42,482 nt of DNA. Source: a virus. The first letter of the stretch is position 1, and each line of letters opens with the position of its first letter. This document shows, one piece after another, positions 4,774 to 33,667 of this stretch. The position numbers and the translations under genes are program-made. The notes beneath the pieces were generated by a model. It did no database searches and was not told the origin of the DNA. It saw only the letters and a list, made by a program, of their open reading frames with translations. Location of the stretch: IMG/VR virus record IMGVR_UViG_3300011416_000019, positions 1 to 42,482 of that record; one strand, 5' to 3'.

Positions 4774-5076
4774 TTAAAAAACCCATAGAGATACGATACA
4801 AGCGCCGCTACTCTCTAACAATAGTGTTAAATTAGACCGCTCATTGCTAGCTTGGCTGTCCCAAATGTCTCGGTTTGTATCTTTTAAAACGATTATATAG
4901 CCTCTGAGCTTGCGTCCTAGTCTATGGTTGATTACGTTCTGCCCTGTAGCAAGTTCTACGTTTTCTAAGAGCTGACCTTGGATGATAGGTAAGCGGATGA
5001 GGGGATTGAGTTCGCCGCTCCACTTGGTTTGCATCATCATGAAATCTTTATCTTCGCTCTTAAATACGGGTAGCAT
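4774..5076 (-). CDS. Conserved small phage structural-region protein
   Basis: 100 residues. The segment LPIIQGQLLENVEL, then NVINHRLGRKLRGYIIVLKD, resembles a recurrent small protein encoded between adaptor and tail genes of many uncultured phages. It has no catalytic motif and is probably a minor beta-sandwich virion component. Its ATG overlaps the stop of the upstream adaptor-like gene as TAATG. This coupling survives even though an HNH gene lies inside the upstream gene. Confidence 0.6.
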   Translation of the reverse strand: MLPVFKSEDKDFMMMQTKWSGELNPLIRLPIIQGQLLENVELATGQNVINHRLGRKLRGYIIVLKDTNRDIWDSQASNERSNLTLLLESSGACIVSLWVF

Positions 5077-6626
5077 TATGACTTGACCTCATCGGCATTA
5101 TATTGTATATAAGCATTATGACCACTTATGAAACTGAATTTTGGAGTAGAGTTGCTAAAGGTACTGGGTGTTGGCTTTGGATTGCTAACAAGGATAGAAG
5201 TGGTTACGGACGATTTAATTTTAAAGGCGTTAGAAAACCTGCTCATAGAGTTTCTTATGAACTCAGTTATGGACACATTGAGTCTAATAATTTTATTTGT
5301 CACAGGTGTGATGAGCCTAGTTGTGTTCGACCGGGTCATTTGTTTCAAGGAACTCAATTCGATAACATGCTTGATATGACTAAAAAAGGTCGACGAGCTG
5401 CTGGCAAGAAAGTTTCTAATCCTGGAGAACTTAATCCAGCTGCCAAACTTACGGTAAGTCAAGTAGCTGATATAAGATACCGCTATTCCAATGAAAAGAT
5501 TAGTCAAATTAAATTGGCTACTCAATATGGAGTTAGCCAACAAGTCATTTCCAATATTATTCTTAGAAAGAATTGGCGCTAAAGCTACAAGCCATCCCCC
5601 GATTCCGCCCTGAGGACCGAAGCCGTGGCCCCATCCCCAGTCGTTTCTAACAGCAGAGACGGTGTCTGGCTGACCTGCATCCCTATTAGATGCGCTCTCT
5701 TCAATACGTTTCTTGAGGAACATTAGTTCTTCGTCGAGCTTAGATGTATCAGATTCTTCCTTGTCTAGCGCGTACTTAGCTGCTCTGATGATAACGTATT
5801 GTAGCCATCCTGAGATGCCTATGTCACTGACATCTGTGTCTTGTAAGAGTTCTGTAAGTCTTGGAACATACCAGAGTCTTAAGATCTGACCGGCTGAAGG
5901 AGTCGGAATGAACTCTATCTTGTCCTTACCCAGCAGCCTATACTGAAGATTAAACACACCGTAAATAGTGCTAGCGGTGTTTGGATAAACAAACCTATTG
6001 CGGTCAATGAAATTAAACTTATTAACTGTAACATATGCGTTGTTGGCGCTGTTTAACGAGAGGTCGACGCCTATTAACTTATAAAATGGTCTAGGAACAA
6101 ACGACTGATTAGCTTGGTTGATGAAGCTCATAACGCCGTCTGGGAGTGGGTATAAGAAAGTAGAGCCATCTGCACTAAATTGAGCTGCTGGAGCTACATA
6201 TAAGTCTTCGTATAGGGTTACTAGGAGGTCGTAGAGCTCGAACATCGCTTGGTTGATGAAGAAGTTCCACTCAGGAACTGTAACAAACTTGCTGTTAACT
6301 CTATCTGCTCTCTGTTGAGCGCGTTGCCTGATCTCACCGAGGGAGAGTTCGCCTGAGGTCGTTGGTACTACACTCTGAGCCTGAGTATAAGGGCTAGTTC
6401 CTGATCCATTGGATGCTGCTATCTGGTACCAGTAGGCTGTTCCTAATGTAACGGCGGTATCCAGGTATTTAGGTACGGATACAGTCGCTATAGTAGCGAA
6501 GGTTACATTGTCTAGAGAACGTTGAAATACGTAAGAAGTTGCACCTGCTGATGGATCACAGGACGAGAAGACCTGCCCATTGGCAGTCTGGATGTAAGGA
6601 TTCGTGGGTGTCGAAGGTATGGCCAT
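5076..6626 (-). CDS. Adaptor-like / FN3-containing structural protein with C-terminal extension antisense to an HNH gene
   Basis: 516 residues. Residues about 1-90 form an FN3-like beta-sandwich (SATSYVFQRSLDNVTFATIA, then AYWYQIAASNGSGTSPYT). Residues about 95-340 resemble a head-tail adaptor or connector protein: LGEIRQRAQQRADR, VPEWNFFINQAMFELYDLL, LRLWYVPRLTELLQDTD, GWLQYVIIRAAKYALDKEESD and the closing NRDAGQPDTVSAVRNDWGWG. From about residue 349 (after GGIGGW) to residue 511 the frame is the exact reverse complement of a plus-strand HNH gene and is rich in Ser, Ile, Asn and Thr, unlike the rest. The last residues, ADEVKS, and the TAATG overlap with the next gene look like the ancestral gene end. 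The extension may be translated; whether it folds is unknown. Confidence 0.7.
   Translation of the reverse strand: MAIPSTPTNPYIQTANGQVFSSCDPSAGATSYVFQRSLDNVTFATIATVSVPKYLDTAVTLGTAYWYQIAASNGSGTSPYTQAQSVVPTTSGELSLGEIRQRAQQRADRVNSKFVTVPEWNFFINQAMFELYDLLVTLYEDLYVAPAAQFSADGSTFLYPLPDGVMSFINQANQSFVPRPFYKLIGVDLSLNSANNAYVTVNKFNFIDRNRFVYPNTASTIYGVFNLQYRLLGKDKIEFIPTPSAGQILRLWYVPRLTELLQDTDVSDIGISGWLQYVIIRAAKYALDKEESDTSKLDEELMFLKKRIEESASNRDAGQPDTVSAVRNDWGWGHGFGPQGGIGGWLVALAPILSKNNIGNDLLANSILSSQFNLTNLFIGIAVSYISYLTYRKFGSWIKFSRIRNFLASSSSTFFSHIKHVIELSSLKQMTRSNTTRLITPVTNKIIRLNVSITEFIRNSMSRFSNAFKIKSSVTTSILVSNPKPTPSTFSNSTPKFSFISGHNAYIQYNADEVKS
5118..5582 (+). CDS. HNH homing-type endonuclease, inserted antisense
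   Basis: 154 residues from the ATG at 5118 (a TTG five codons upstream is a less likely start). The fold matches freestanding phage HNH endonucleases: GTGCWLWIANKDRSGYGRF, then PAHRVSYELSYG (HNH histidine), CHRCDEPSCVRPGHLFQGTQ (Cys pair and following His), and a C-terminal DNA-binding helix-turn-helix (VADIRYRYSNEKISQIKLATQYGVSQQVIS). It is the only plus-strand gene left of 36 kb and lies wholly inside the end of the minus-strand adaptor-like gene. Only about 40 bases flank it on one side and none on the other, leaving no room for a self-splicing intron. No strong ribosome-binding site is visible. The codons of the two strands are in exact register. Confidence 0.85.
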   Translation: MTTYETEFWSRVAKGTGCWLWIANKDRSGYGRFNFKGVRKPAHRVSYELSYGHIESNNFICHRCDEPSCVRPGHLFQGTQFDNMLDMTKKGRRAAGKKVSNPGELNPAAKLTVSQVADIRYRYSNEKISQIKLATQYGVSQQVISNIILRKNWR

Positions 6627-7427: not shown

Positions 7428-7547
7428 GGTAACCCAGTACGTGTTGCTGGGAGGGTATGGAGTTATATCGTGGTTTTATCCGACGCCCCTGTCTTTCCAC
7501 GGAGAACACAACGACTGTGTCTTCTTACCTGTTAGATTGTATTAGTT
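7428..7547 (-). other. Leader/intergenic region with small hairpins
   Basis: About 120 bases upstream of the 224-residue virion gene without a plausible minus-strand gene. Short hairpins can be drawn (CCCAG/CTGGG around 7433-7451; ACACA/TGTGT around 7507-7521). A plus-strand open frame here runs into the antisense of the next gene and has no family signal. I see no good promoter. Confidence 0.35.
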
Positions 7548-7733
7548 TTAATCGTCTTTATGACGAGCATAAGGATTCGTACTGTCGTCTTCGTAGCCAT
7601 AGACACTGGTATCGACTTCTTCGTCGGTATTCTCTACCTCTTGATTACAGTGCTTGCACTTGTTCCACTCGCCGAAGTAAGGACGTAGTTCTTTTAAGCC
7701 ACAGTATGTGCATTTAACCCAGATCTTTCGCAT
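7548..7733 (-). CDS. Small zinc-ribbon protein
   Basis: 61 residues with two CxxC knuckles: C8-x2-C11 (CTYC) and C26-x2-C29 (CKHC), followed by an acidic tail (ENTDEEVDTSVYGYEDD). This is the pattern of a minimal zinc ribbon. Its ATG lies 2 bases after the stop of the 57-residue gene, so the two are probably coupled. The target (nucleic acid or protein) is unknown. Confidence 0.65.
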   Translation of the reverse strand: MRKIWVKCTYCGLKELRPYFGEWNKCKHCNQEVENTDEEVDTSVYGYEDDSTNPYARHKDD

Positions 7734-9218: not shown

Positions 9219-9285
9219 CTATGACTTCAACGACAAATCCTGTCAACAGCATTAAGATTGTTAAAATACATATAAAATTAACCAT
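9208..9285 (-). CDS. Possible membrane microprotein (25 aa)
   Basis: The ATG at 9285 overlaps the last codons of the pyrophosphatase gene by 8 bases (ATGGTTAA). The product, MVNFICILTILMLLTGFVVE plus VIDCH, is a single hydrophobic segment ending in a short polar tail with Cys. It is preceded only by a weak GCGAGA. Coupling to the pyrophosphatase gene is likely if it is made. Confidence 0.4.
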   Translation of the reverse strand: MVNFICILTILMLLTGFVVEVIDCH

Positions 9286-9721
9286 ATAATTGTCTCGCTT
9301 TCTCAATGATTTGCTCAATCGCTTGCTTATCAGTTACAGTCTCGATGATTTCAAATCCTTTCTTATAGTTATTAAGATACGTGATGACCCTGTACTCACT
9401 CTCAATTCTATCAAAACTGCCATATGCAGTCTCGCCATCAAGAATTCCTAAAATCTTATCGTCGCTCTTACCGTTATCATTGCATCTAAATGCAGAGATT
9501 ATATTAAACTTAACTTTTGATAAAGAAACTAAAGGATTCTTCGATACCACGAACACGTCTAATGGGTCACCATCGTCGCATAGCGTATTAGGAATGAAGC
9601 CGTAGTTAGAAGGTATAGCAATTGGAATCCTACGGTCTAATACTAGTAATTTAGAGTCTTTATCGTATTCGTACTTATAATGAGTATTAGCTGGCATCTC
9701 AATAATTGCGTTAAAAATCAT
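9278..9721 (-). CDS. ppa: Inorganic pyrophosphatase (family I)
   Basis: 147 residues from the ATG at 9721; in-frame ATGs up to 9760 exist but add only a Met/Lys/Arg stretch outside the fold. All hallmark residues of soluble family I PPases are visible: IIEMPANTHYKYEYD (Glu, Lys, Glu), DRRIPIAIPSNYGFIPNTL, the metal-binding signature DDGDPLDVFV (DxDxxD), the second Asp cluster NDNGKSDDKILGI, and the late NYKKG that binds phosphate. It is slightly shorter than bacterial enzymes (about 175). It hydrolyses PPi released by DNA synthesis and so pulls polymerisation forward. It lies among structural and microprotein genes rather than beside the polymerase. Confidence 0.9.
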   Translation of the reverse strand: MIFNAIIEMPANTHYKYEYDKDSKLLVLDRRIPIAIPSNYGFIPNTLCDDGDPLDVFVVSKNPLVSLSKVKFNIISAFRCNDNGKSDDKILGILDGETAYGSFDRIESEYRVITYLNNYKKGFEIIETVTDKQAIEQIIEKARQLYG

Positions 9722-9764
9722 ACGGATCATCATCCTCATCTTTTTTATCATTAAAAGCATTCAG

Positions 9765-30270: not shown

Positions 30271-30646
30271 CTCGTTGCTCCTTCTTAAACTTTGTACGTT
30301 CTTTTCGCTCTTGTTTGGTCTTTTCATCGTGACATACCTTACATAAAATTTGCAAGTAAATTCGTGGGCACCAGATGCGGTTTATCAGTTCGTCCCATGA
30401 CATGACTTCTAGCGACTTGTCTACTGGCACTACTGGATAGACGTGGTCTACTGCTGCTTTATACTGCGGCGTAGGGTTCTTACAGCCTTCACATATTACC
30501 CACTTTTTGACTCTAGGGCGATTAGGATCTAAATGTTCAATCTTTCCTGAATCTATAACAACTCGTCTTAAATCTGAACGAGAAAATACGCGGCGTATAG
30601 CACCCTTAAGCAGTCCGCGTTCTTTCTTAGAGATAAGACTGTTCAT
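30251..30646 (-). CDS. HNH nuclease-like protein
   Basis: 131 residues. Core: WVICEGCKNPTPQYKAAVDH, then VYPVVPVDKSLEVMSWDELI and LQILCKVCHDEKTKQERKER. The CxxC...DH...CxxCH pattern is the HNH finger with zinc-binding knuckles. It differs from restriction-type HNH proteins by the insert VDKSLEVMSWDELINRIWCP, which is shared by a family found in phage replication operons. The ATG overlaps the SbcC-like stop by 4 bases. The C-terminus is very basic. It is probably a resident nuclease rather than a homing invader, since it is in operon order and strand. Confidence 0.8.
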   Translation of the reverse strand: MNSLISKKERGLLKGAIRRVFSRSDLRRVVIDSGKIEHLDPNRPRVKKWVICEGCKNPTPQYKAAVDHVYPVVPVDKSLEVMSWDELINRIWCPRIYLQILCKVCHDEKTKQERKERTKFKKEQRDVRKND

Positions 30647-32289
30647 GAGCTTTTCTCAATTATACTATAATCGTTAACTAACTCAACTTTATATTGATTA
30701 TCGAATAGCGACCTTAGCTCTGAAGCATGATCAATGACAATTATAGAATCATGCTCTAAACTTAGAGCCTCGAACAATTTGTATGCTTTAAGCTTAAGCT
30801 CAGTATCTAGTCCATCTAAGGCTTCATCAAACATCAATGTATCAAAGTGTTGGCCTATCTTATTTGCACTTGCTTTCATCACGCTAAGACTAAAGCATAG
30901 TTTTAAGATCTGTCTCTGACCTTTAGAAAGCTGAGCATAAACACACTCGTAACCATTCTTATATAACGATACTTCAAGTTTATCAGAGCCTGTTAGCTTA
31001 AAATTTGCCCTAAGCTCGCCATCGAAATAATCTTGTATTAAGTCATTAGTGCGGTCTTCTACGAATTGTACCGAGGTTTGTAGTAACTGACTTCTTAAGT
31101 TAACTGTAAGGTCTCTTACCTGCTCAGTTAGATCAATTTTATGTTTATAAACATAAATTTGCTCTTCTAAGTATTTGATTTTATTAGAAAGCTTATCAAT
31201 ATCCTGTTGACTGCTGCGTGCTTGACGAAGGAATGGATTTTCTTTAACTCTTTCAGCTTCCAACTGAGCTATGTAAGGATTGCACTTCTGTTGTTCATCT
31301 TTAAGGACATTTTTTAGCCCATTATGCTTAGTTAAGTTAACTTTATATTCTGTTTCTATCTTATTGATTTCATTGCGAATGCTTTGGATTAACTTCTGAT
31401 CTTTTGGCGCGCCGCATTCTCTACATTTTGACTGCTCTAACTTGGCATTAAGTTCTGTTTTCAGACACTCGATCTTATGGTTAATATCTAAGCTTAATTC
31501 TAAATACTCTAGCTCTTCGTAAACTGTAGCTAGCTTCTTTTCTCTTTCTTCTTCGTAACTTTTCGCTTTATTCTCAAGACCTTTGATGGTTTTCTCTTGA
31601 TTTTGTTGCCATTCTTCTTTACTTTTTTCATTTGATTCGAAAACGGACTTGATGGCTCGGAATACATCTTGTTGTGCAAGTAGTTGTGACGAATTAATAT
31701 TGGATTCGGATCGCAACCCAGATAAACGTATCTTACTGAGGCTATCGAGCCGTTCTGCGAGGGAAAGATCTGTGAGTTGATTGAAGAGCTCTCGTCTTTC
31801 TTTAGCTTTGGCGGTAAAAAACGCTCCAGTTCTAGAGAACTCATGAAAATATGCGCTCGTGAGATAATCTTCCGCAGTAACTTTAATAATTTGTTCGATA
31901 ATTCTCTGAGTGTCATTGATGTCCTTTCCACGATTAAGCCTAGCACTGCCGTCGGAATCATAAATGAGATAGAGGTCGTTCTGTCCGGGTGATTTGGACC
32001 GAATTCTTGTAATAGTAACCGGGTCTCCGCTAGGAAGCTCAATTGTGATCTCACCCTTAGTGACTTCATCTAAGTTACTCCAATTCCTAATATCATCAAC
32101 GCTACCGTCTTTGGCAGTAATCCCGTATATAACCCATGCTGGTATGTCTTGTAAAGTGCTTTTACCTGAGCCGGTCGGTCCATAGACTAAGGTGAGACCT
32201 TGATTATTGTATTCAAACTCAAGTTCTTTATAACTTCCAAAATTATGAACTTTAGCCTTGAGAATCCTCACTTGAGTAGGTCCCGCCAC
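30643..32289 (-). CDS. SbcC/Rad50-like recombination ATPase (T4 gp46-like)
   Basis: 548 residues, close to T4 gp46 in size. Walker A GPTGSGKS (37-44), Q-loop region ITAKDGSVDDIRNWSN, a coiled coil interrupted by the zinc hook CRECGAP (near 285), the signature motif QLSKGQRQILKLCFSLSVMK and Walker B TLMFDEALDGLD, then a His-containing switch (IVIDHASEL). The coiled coil is short, as in phage versions. With its SbcD-like partner it resects double-strand ends. The two genes overlap by 22 bases, the usual arrangement for this pair. Confidence 0.92.
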   Translation of the reverse strand: MAGPTQVRILKAKVHNFGSYKELEFEYNNQGLTLVYGPTGSGKSTLQDIPAWVIYGITAKDGSVDDIRNWSNLDEVTKGEITIELPSGDPVTITRIRSKSPGQNDLYLIYDSDGSARLNRGKDINDTQRIIEQIIKVTAEDYLTSAYFHEFSRTGAFFTAKAKERRELFNQLTDLSLAERLDSLSKIRLSGLRSESNINSSQLLAQQDVFRAIKSVFESNEKSKEEWQQNQEKTIKGLENKAKSYEEEREKKLATVYEELEYLELSLDINHKIECLKTELNAKLEQSKCRECGAPKDQKLIQSIRNEINKIETEYKVNLTKHNGLKNVLKDEQQKCNPYIAQLEAERVKENPFLRQARSSQQDIDKLSNKIKYLEEQIYVYKHKIDLTEQVRDLTVNLRSQLLQTSVQFVEDRTNDLIQDYFDGELRANFKLTGSDKLEVSLYKNGYECVYAQLSKGQRQILKLCFSLSVMKASANKIGQHFDTLMFDEALDGLDTELKLKAYKLFEALSLEHDSIIVIDHASELRSLFDNQYKVELVNDYSIIEKSS

Positions 32290-33269
32290 GTATCTTTTAG
32301 TTCGTTCTTATGATTATCGTTATCTGATAATGCATCTATGATTTTATCGAATACTTCTTCGCTGGTATTTGCCGCTAAAATAGGTTGAGAGACTTCTGAT
32401 TTATCAGGAATTAGATCAAGTTTATAATTAACATTGTTAAACAATCGTTTACCAAGATCGTTCTTATTTAACTTTTTTAGTTCGCTTAATGGACCATGTA
32501 GCTTAACCCAAACTAAGTCATTAGATTGTATGGCTGCAGTGTTTACGGCGTTAAGTTCATTAATATGTGTTTCTAATATAACGTGTTTTCTTAGATTAGT
32601 TGGTACAAAAGTTAATAATCCGTCGCTATTAAGTATTTGAAACCCCTTTGGACCGTCATTAGCTTCTCCAAAAGTCAGGGTGTATAGATTGCCTATATAA
32701 CTAAATAACCCTACCGCTCCTTTTCGAGGGCGGCCACATTTTATATCCTGCTTTTTGTGGTAGTGACCAGAAATAACTCTAAAATCTTTAAATGTTTCCT
32801 TTGGTAATGATGTTTTATCCTGTATATAATGGCCCATATAAGCTGTCTGTACGCCTTGATGCATTATGATGGTAGATTCGGGTTTAATGTTACTTAACTC
32901 AGTTAATAATTTAGATGTATCTGAAAAATACGGCAATAAAATTCCAACATTTGCGCATGTGGTACTTCTATCTACTATATTAGCGTATGGTCTCAAGAAT
33001 TCTAGAGAATGTTCAGTACCTTTTTCGTTTAATAAACAATGATTACCGACTAGTACGTACGCTTTGGTTTTTACTTGTTTGAAAGTACTTATGATAGCTT
33101 TTACGCATTCGCCTCTAAGCTGCGCTTTAGTATCATGTAGGTCGCCTGCTACTATGAGTGGAACTTTTAGACTGTTTGCCATGTTTATTGCCTGATGCAT
33201 GCCAGCATCTGCTAAAGTTAATGTACTGATATTATAATGAACATCGGCAACAATTACGGCTTTTTGCAT
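32268..33269 (-). CDS. SbcD/Mre11-like metallophosphoesterase (T4 gp47-like)
   Basis: 333 residues from the ATG at 33269 (GAGAGAAGC upstream); a longer frame runs back into the HNH gene but has no site. Phosphoesterase motifs in order: I VADVHYN, II IVAGDLHDTK, III LVGNHCLLNEKG, IV IIMHQGVQTAYMG, V VISGHYHKKQDI. All metal ligands appear present. It is the nuclease of the gp46/47-type complex. It overlaps the upstream HNH gene by 16 bases. Confidence 0.9.
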   Translation of the reverse strand: MQKAVIVADVHYNISTLTLADAGMHQAINMANSLKVPLIVAGDLHDTKAQLRGECVKAIISTFKQVKTKAYVLVGNHCLLNEKGTEHSLEFLRPYANIVDRSTTCANVGILLPYFSDTSKLLTELSNIKPESTIIMHQGVQTAYMGHYIQDKTSLPKETFKDFRVISGHYHKKQDIKCGRPRKGAVGLFSYIGNLYTLTFGEANDGPKGFQILNSDGLLTFVPTNLRKHVILETHINELNAVNTAAIQSNDLVWVKLHGPLSELKKLNKNDLGKRLFNNVNYKLDLIPDKSEVSQPILAANTSEEVFDKIIDALSDNDNHKNELKDTWRDLLK

Positions 33270-33667
33270 GCTTCTCTCGCAGATTTTGCGCTGTTCTCCG
33301 AGTGCGTTAGCCATTGCATATTATCTAATGTATATCCTTTACTTGAATCAATTCTGTCTACAGATGGAGTTTCAGTTCGAGGATACCCTAATGCAGTCCA
33401 TTTATTGAATAAATCTAAGAATTTTATAGAGTTATTTGCCCAATTATAAAACTCTTGTCTAGGCAATAATTCTTTGCCTTGGTATAAGTGAGCTTTTTTA
33501 TGCTGAACCCCAGTTACTCTTGATTGCATATTTCTATATAGCCGCATTAAAAATCCATTAATAGTTTTTTCATATTTAAATGTAGTTTTATTGCCGCTTA
33601 ATTTTCGACGTTCTCTTTGCTTTCTTGCTAACTCAGCATTCCAAGTATATTTACTCTGATTCAACAC
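33254..33667 (-). CDS. HNH-family endonuclease-like protein
   Basis: 137 residues. It has TPSVDRIDSSKGYTLDNMQW, then LTHSENSAKSAREACKKP, the classical 'SxDRID...GYtldNiq' core of a phage HNH subfamily. The N-terminal 60 residues are basic helices (ELARKQRERRKLSGNKTTFK, FLMRLYRNMQSRV) likely to bind DNA. It sits between recA-like and sbcD-like genes with overlaps of 17 and 16 bases. It may be a homing endonuclease that settled between two recombination genes without disrupting either. Confidence 0.8.
   Translation of the reverse strand: MLNQSKYTWNAELARKQRERRKLSGNKTTFKYEKTINGFLMRLYRNMQSRVTGVQHKKAHLYQGKELLPRQEFYNWANNSIKFLDLFNKWTALGYPRTETPSVDRIDSSKGYTLDNMQWLTHSENSAKSAREACKKP

Follow-up and report, generated by a model that had tools for sequence, protein, structure and literature searches.

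The window, that is, the whole 42,482-nt stretch analysed, originates from the IMG/VR virus record IMGVR_UViG_3300011416_000019 and contains a long minus-strand operon. Within this operon, a plus-strand HNH endonuclease gene was found between an adaptor gene and the following structural gene (Table 1). The adaptor was assigned to SU10_adaptor (PF24175) with 28.9 bits against a Pfam cut-off of 27, and its N-terminus, ahead of this domain, was Fn3-like according to PDB sequence matches to Fn3 domains.

The HNH protein matched HNH_3 (PF13392) in Pfam with 33.7 bits against a curated cut-off of 24.8 (2.7e-8), as well as PHROG endonuclease families down to 2e-26. The catalytic and zinc-type residues H43, H62, C64, C69, H74 and N83 were invariant in alignments of 12 and 14 rows. 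The AF2 model reached a pLDDT of 87, and its top PDB match, I-HmuI (1u3e), was weak (probability 0.99, E 4e-3, TM 0.38). The protein is a putative active endonuclease that would home. Its mode of transcription can be proposed from the sequence only tentatively: the promoter candidate listed in Table 1 was not reported by the consensus promoter scan, and no Shine-Dalgarno site was seen on reading the sequence before the ATG at 5118. Promoter and terminator scans yielded nothing informative, and RNA folding of the sequence around the HNH start showed nothing remarkable.

Table 1. Features at the junction of the adaptor gene and the next structural gene, with positions in the window
Feature	Position	Strand	Basis
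Next structural-operon gene, 100 aa, conserved adaptor neighbour, coupled by position	4774..5076	-	Related phages
TAATG, stop of the extended adaptor overlapping the next-gene start	5074..5078	-	Sequence; same motif in insert-free homologs
Adaptor read-through tail, 171 codons, in-register antisense of the insert	5079..5591	-	No homologs, no Pfam match, no confident fold
Possible HNH promoter (TTGACC, 17 nt, TATATA), weak, chance possible	5083..5111	+	Read from the sequence
HNH endonuclease gene (HNH_3 plus C-terminal helix-turn-helix), 154 aa, without TTA, CTA or TCA	5118..5582	+	Pfam, PHROG, AF2, codon count
Adaptor core, 345 codons, native end ...GGIGGW	5592..6626	-	Pfam, PDB sequence match, alignment with 10 homologs ending here

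The original prediction had placed the HNH gene inside the structural gene and had proposed an alignment of homologous adaptors. All ten homologs, with 61–71% identity, ended in ...GG(W/F/Y/N), a GGW-type position that matches GGIGGW, and in most of them the stop codon overlapped or nearly touched the next start codon (TAATG, TGATG or TAGATG). Both elements were present in the window, where the last base of the native adaptor end (5592) and the TAATG motif (TAA 5078-5076, ATG 5076-5074) were separated by 513 nt (171 codons). Since the homologs end in GGW, GGF or GGY right before the next start, the insert lies precisely between the last native adaptor codon and the native TAATG. The HNH gene thus interrupted no gene and is not situated inside one, but the predicted preservation of the TAATG coupling was confirmed. 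No match to the window adaptor was obtained by tblastn against cultured phages, so all adaptor relatives are metagenomic; a scan of genome contigs returned one distant match only.

Codon register and codon content of the HNH gene

The HNH ORF (5118-5582, plus strand) and the adaptor ORF including the tail (5076-6626, minus strand) share exact codon boundaries, as had been claimed, the distance between 5118 and 5076 being 42 nt or 14 codons. In a frame-0 antisense overlap of this kind, only CTA, TTA and TCA codons of the sense gene make stops (PMC11266595). As these encode Leu (TTA, CTA) or Ser (TCA), a synonymous change suffices to remove any stop of the opposite frame, and the nuclease pays nothing for it.

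The codon count agreed with the prediction: none of the 20 Leu and Ser codons of the HNH gene was TTA, CTA or TCA. The eight Leu codons were CTT (5), TTG (2) and CTC (1), and the 12 Ser codons were AGT (6), TCT (3), TCC (2) and AGC (1). In the rest of the window, TTA and CTA together made up 51% of Leu codons and TCA 22% of Ser codons, and under the window's own codon usage the absence of all three had a P of about 1.6e-4 to 1.8e-4. Not one of 5743 stretches of 155 codons inside the window's genes was free of these codons, and the two remaining antisense frames across the HNH gene contained 14 and 20 stops. Both the register and the codon avoidance are real and beyond chance.

Antisense inserts in related phages

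The scan for adaptor relatives covered 101 distinct loci. An HNH sequence occurred at the adaptor/next-gene junction in six of them, in antisense orientation in the window, L022, L036, L057 and L119 (the latter also the best match of a separate HNH scan) and in sense orientation in L051. A further antisense HNH gene was located in L226, at the junction that directly precedes the adaptor gene, giving five antisense inserts in related phages besides that of the window. In all six antisense cases, the open frame of the structural strand was the exact-register frame.

The way in which the structural strand passes the insert differed among the loci. In the window, the adaptor is read through as far as TAATG. 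In L022, a read-through of about 75 codons covers an HNH remnant (the last ~55 residues) and stops 6 nt before the next start. The strand of L036 runs through TAAGTATATG and is then open until it overlaps the next start by 11 nt, and that of L057 reads TGA|ATG, an open stretch, TAG|ATG and a second open stretch to TAATG. In L119, about 26 codons of read-through are followed by TAG|ATG and an open frame to TAG|TTG; in L226, the stop is followed after 6 nt by an ATG and a frame open to an ATGA that overlaps the adaptor start. In all full-length cases, the opposite frame begins on the native stop or directly behind it, and it reaches or enters the next start codon. Only two internal stops remain (L057 and L119), each with an ATG directly after it.

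Among the 89 adaptor junctions surveyed, 73 were without an insert and 71 lay within 12 nt of direct coupling. For all 16 junction inserts, sense or antisense, the untranslated remainder was only 0–25 nt. Translatability of the structural strand from the adaptor to the next gene was common to all of them, the sense inserts included.

Several further observations concern the junction itself. It is a hot spot for other small sense inserts (L020, L021, L034, L030, L040, L059, L073, L002 and L008), among them structural-type genes, small membrane proteins and an unrelated CxxC endonuclease-like gene. Almost all of these inserts are joined to both neighbours by TAATG-type coupling. In L036 (4469-4484), the start codons of the HNH gene and the next structural gene are divergent and 10 nt apart within the near-palindrome CATAGGACCTCCTATG, and the spacer serves each gene as a Shine-Dalgarno site. 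The Gly-Gly-(Trp/Phe) codons (GGNGGNTTY/TGG) conserved at native adaptor ends, for example in L004, L019 and L027, may have a second role as Shine-Dalgarno site for the gene that follows; inserts shift this candidate site away from the next start.

Codon depletion in the phage group and in the wider HNH sample

The six antisense HNH genes (window, the L022 remnant, L036, L057, L119 and L226) were pooled, with expectations taken from the codon usage of each locus. They contained two TTA, CTA or TCA codons against 23.6 expected (P 4.7e-10). As the window had been chosen for being open, the calculation was repeated without it and gave two against 16.9 (P 1.2e-6). Four lineage representatives gave two against 14.3 (P 1.8e-5). 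The depletion is specific to these three codons: in the same six genes, the other A-ending codons were over-used, with 112 against 76 expected for V, G, P, T, A and R and 105 against 73.5 for I, K, E and Q.

The comparison sample consisted of 160 distinct HNH genes, 97 of them in sense orientation. Orientation relative to the flanks was assigned with a coding-score gene caller, after length-greedy calling had misclassified the flanks of L122 and L145; L145 was still called sense. The 97 sense genes contained 474 TTA, CTA or TCA codons against 332 expected and showed no avoidance, which disposes of the concern, raised with the prediction, that related HNH genes might avoid these codons regardless of an antisense gene. 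After adjustment for the bias towards A-ending codons, the values were 474 against 502 for the sense genes, showing the adjusted null to be calibrated, and 2 against 38 for the six. At GC below 0.52, the 45 sense genes carried 301 such codons among 903 Leu and Ser codons, and one or none occurred in only two of the 45, compared with all six antisense genes of the group.

In a tree built from 157 HNH proteins, the group's five full-length genes represented four lineages: the window together with L119, and L036, L057 and L226 separately. Their closest neighbours from outside the group were mostly sense-oriented. Synonymous codons of the group members matched at the random level only, so recent shared descent is not the cause of the shared depletion. 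On the evidence of these sequences, codon avoidance arose independently in at least four HNH lineages.

Outside the phage group, antisense HNH genes showed a mild and mixed depletion (140 against 197 expected). L122 and L144 were clear further candidates, other antisense HNH genes kept many stops, and some compact antisense cases, such as L295 and the second gene of L120, showed no depletion; the avoidance is accordingly not a universal rule. Neither gap size nor terminators provided a clean rule separating avoiding from non-avoiding antisense genes in the general sample. In L122, L145, L144, L339 and L278, the HNH gene lies antisense in unrelated phage operons, with exact-register open frames that span, or nearly span, the gap between its neighbours. 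The effect may be wider than this phage group.

Proposed translation across the insert and its relation to known systems

The explanation considered likely is that an HNH gene was inserted backwards into a coupled junction and purged of opposite-strand stops, the structural strand being kept translatable for the sake of coupling and probably against polarity. A free-standing HNH gene of the homing type would insert backwards at the adaptor stop/next-gene start of the structural operon, and ribosomes on the structural mRNA would then have to traverse about 500 nt of antisense HNH sequence before the next gene. Selection would purge the stops and leave a crossable frame. Ribosomes would enter this frame where the native adaptor ends, either through read-through or from an ATG that lies on the stop or no more than 7 nt from it, and the frame would finish on the start codon of the next gene. 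Translational coupling would be kept, and Rho-type polarity on downstream virion genes would probably be avoided. On this view, ribosomes would indeed cross the insert, and downstream expression would depend on the crossing. Most likely, it is the translatability of the structural strand that is selected, with coupling preserved and polarity prevented. Speaking against this explanation, the downstream genes may have Shine-Dalgarno sites of their own and no need of coupling.

Protection from polarity alone, in which ribosomes need only cover most of the insert to block Rho-type termination and it does not matter whether the frame couples exactly to the next start, is a less probable alternative. 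Untranslated RNA is where Rho loads (review PMC12548453), and nearly continuous translation is kept in all inserts. Polarity does not, however, require the bridges to end on or over the next start, as they do with TAATG in the window and L057, ATGA in L226, TAGTTG in L119 and the 11-nt overlap in L036.

A functional product of the antisense frame, either a useful addition to the adaptor's C-terminus or a small protein in its own right, is unlikely. It would fit the long tails fused to the adaptor in the window and in L022, where about 75 residues (L022:4038-4266) lie antisense to the decayed HNH gene, so that the tail has outlived the nuclease. Four of the six antisense cases nevertheless have no long adaptor tail: L036, L057 and L226 lack a fusion, and the extension in L119 is only about 26 residues long. 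Over 15 pairs, the similarity of the antisense proteins was no higher than predicted by HNH conservation (z about 0), and conservation of the product beyond the constraint of the sense gene, one criterion for functional antisense gene pairs, was not found. Openness and not sequence therefore appears to be selected. A Pfam search of the tail gave no match, and its pLDDT was about 25–46; the fold of adaptor plus tail was of low confidence even in the core owing to a shallow alignment, so an unstructured tail is weakly supported. In addition, 95 of the 101 adaptor loci have no HNH gene at the junction, and these adaptors end natively except at sense inserts.

Given an unconserved product, no predicted fold and the four cases without a long fusion, the tail is probably incidental. 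Selection for an open opposite strand, the first half of what had been predicted, is supported, as the avoidance recurs in five more antisense HNH genes and at least four lineages, is codon-specific and is absent from sense HNH genes; the second half, a virion-protein tail of about 160 residues as the point of the arrangement, is not supported. When the HNH genes were recoded synonymously, an ATG-initiated bridge this complete was seldom kept (P.0025,.0475,.0475,.0075 and.06). Together with the continuity in all inserts, the unconserved product and the mostly missing long tail, this result makes continuity of translation, through termination-reinitiation coupling, protection from polarity or both, the preferred account, ahead of a functional tail.

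An insertion filter, by which only HNH genes with an already open opposite frame survive at coupled junctions and no codon evolution follows, would also account for the association and the multiple lineages. It is similarly improbable, because such frames are rare in donors (the two of 45 sense genes above) and the residual stops each have an ATG precisely after them. Chance combined with ordinary HNH codon bias, noticed since open antisense frames draw attention, is very improbable: single genes other than the window reach P of only about 0.02–0.17 with locus codon usage (L226 alone is weak, 0 against 1.7 expected) and in-register antisense frames of GC-rich genes are open by chance, but the combined P without the window, the excess of other A-ending codons and the comparison with sense genes at low GC argue against it.

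The components are each already known: free-standing HNH genes, TAATG coupling and frame-0 antisense ORFs. Free-standing phage HNH homing endonucleases (T4 mob, T7-like HNH_3) likewise combine HNH_3 with a C-terminal helix-turn-helix and lie between conserved genes. T4 mobE has a UAAUGA overlap with nrdA (review PMC2988022); there the nuclease is in sense and is itself coupled, whereas the present gene runs antisense to the operon and is depleted in TTA, CTA and TCA, so that the other strand stays translatable. TAATG and ATGA junctions between neighbouring operon genes represent termination-reinitiation coupling (review PMC12548453), and here the coupling would be carried through a backwards selfish gene. 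Frame-0 antisense ORFs and overlapping genes show the same exact-register overlap; studies of these ask whether the product is a gene, while here the product is apparently unconstrained and only openness is conserved.

T4 segD, a free-standing GIY-YIG gene antisense between genes 23 and 24, is likewise a backwards endonuclease gene between structural genes. It differs in its insulation, with a terminator upstream and gene 24 preceded by a late promoter. Nine stops occur in the in-register frame opposite segD (nine TTA, CTA or TCA codons kept). It fits as a contrast case, insulated and retaining the codons.

Mobile endonucleases limit host harm by residing in introns, inteins or intergenic gaps. 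We lean towards the view that some homing endonucleases have evolved translational transparency, lying backwards in coupled operons and purging all opposite-strand stop codons, which would let the ribosomes of the host operon pass over them. If true, a selfish gene would have adapted to limit self-harm without an intron or intein, which would amount to a fourth such route, in which the operon stays readable through the back of the gene. Synonymous codons would then be under selection for the sake of the opposite strand, and some long phage antisense ORFs would be explained without functional antisense proteins. Depletion of TTA, CTA and TCA with normal use of other A-ending codons would serve as a signature of junctions where coupling matters. 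A literature search of open-access papers returned no description of endonuclease genes whose recoding leaves the opposite strand of an operon open.

Three other genes of the window were also noted. An 86-aa ORF (7457-7717, plus strand) without a PHROG match lies in a 0.5 kb gap between minus-strand genes. An inorganic pyrophosphatase gene (9278-9760, minus strand; PF00719, 4e-29) is found amid phage structural genes, and SbcC-like and SbcD-like subunits of a palindrome-specific nuclease are encoded at 30643-33314 on the minus strand.
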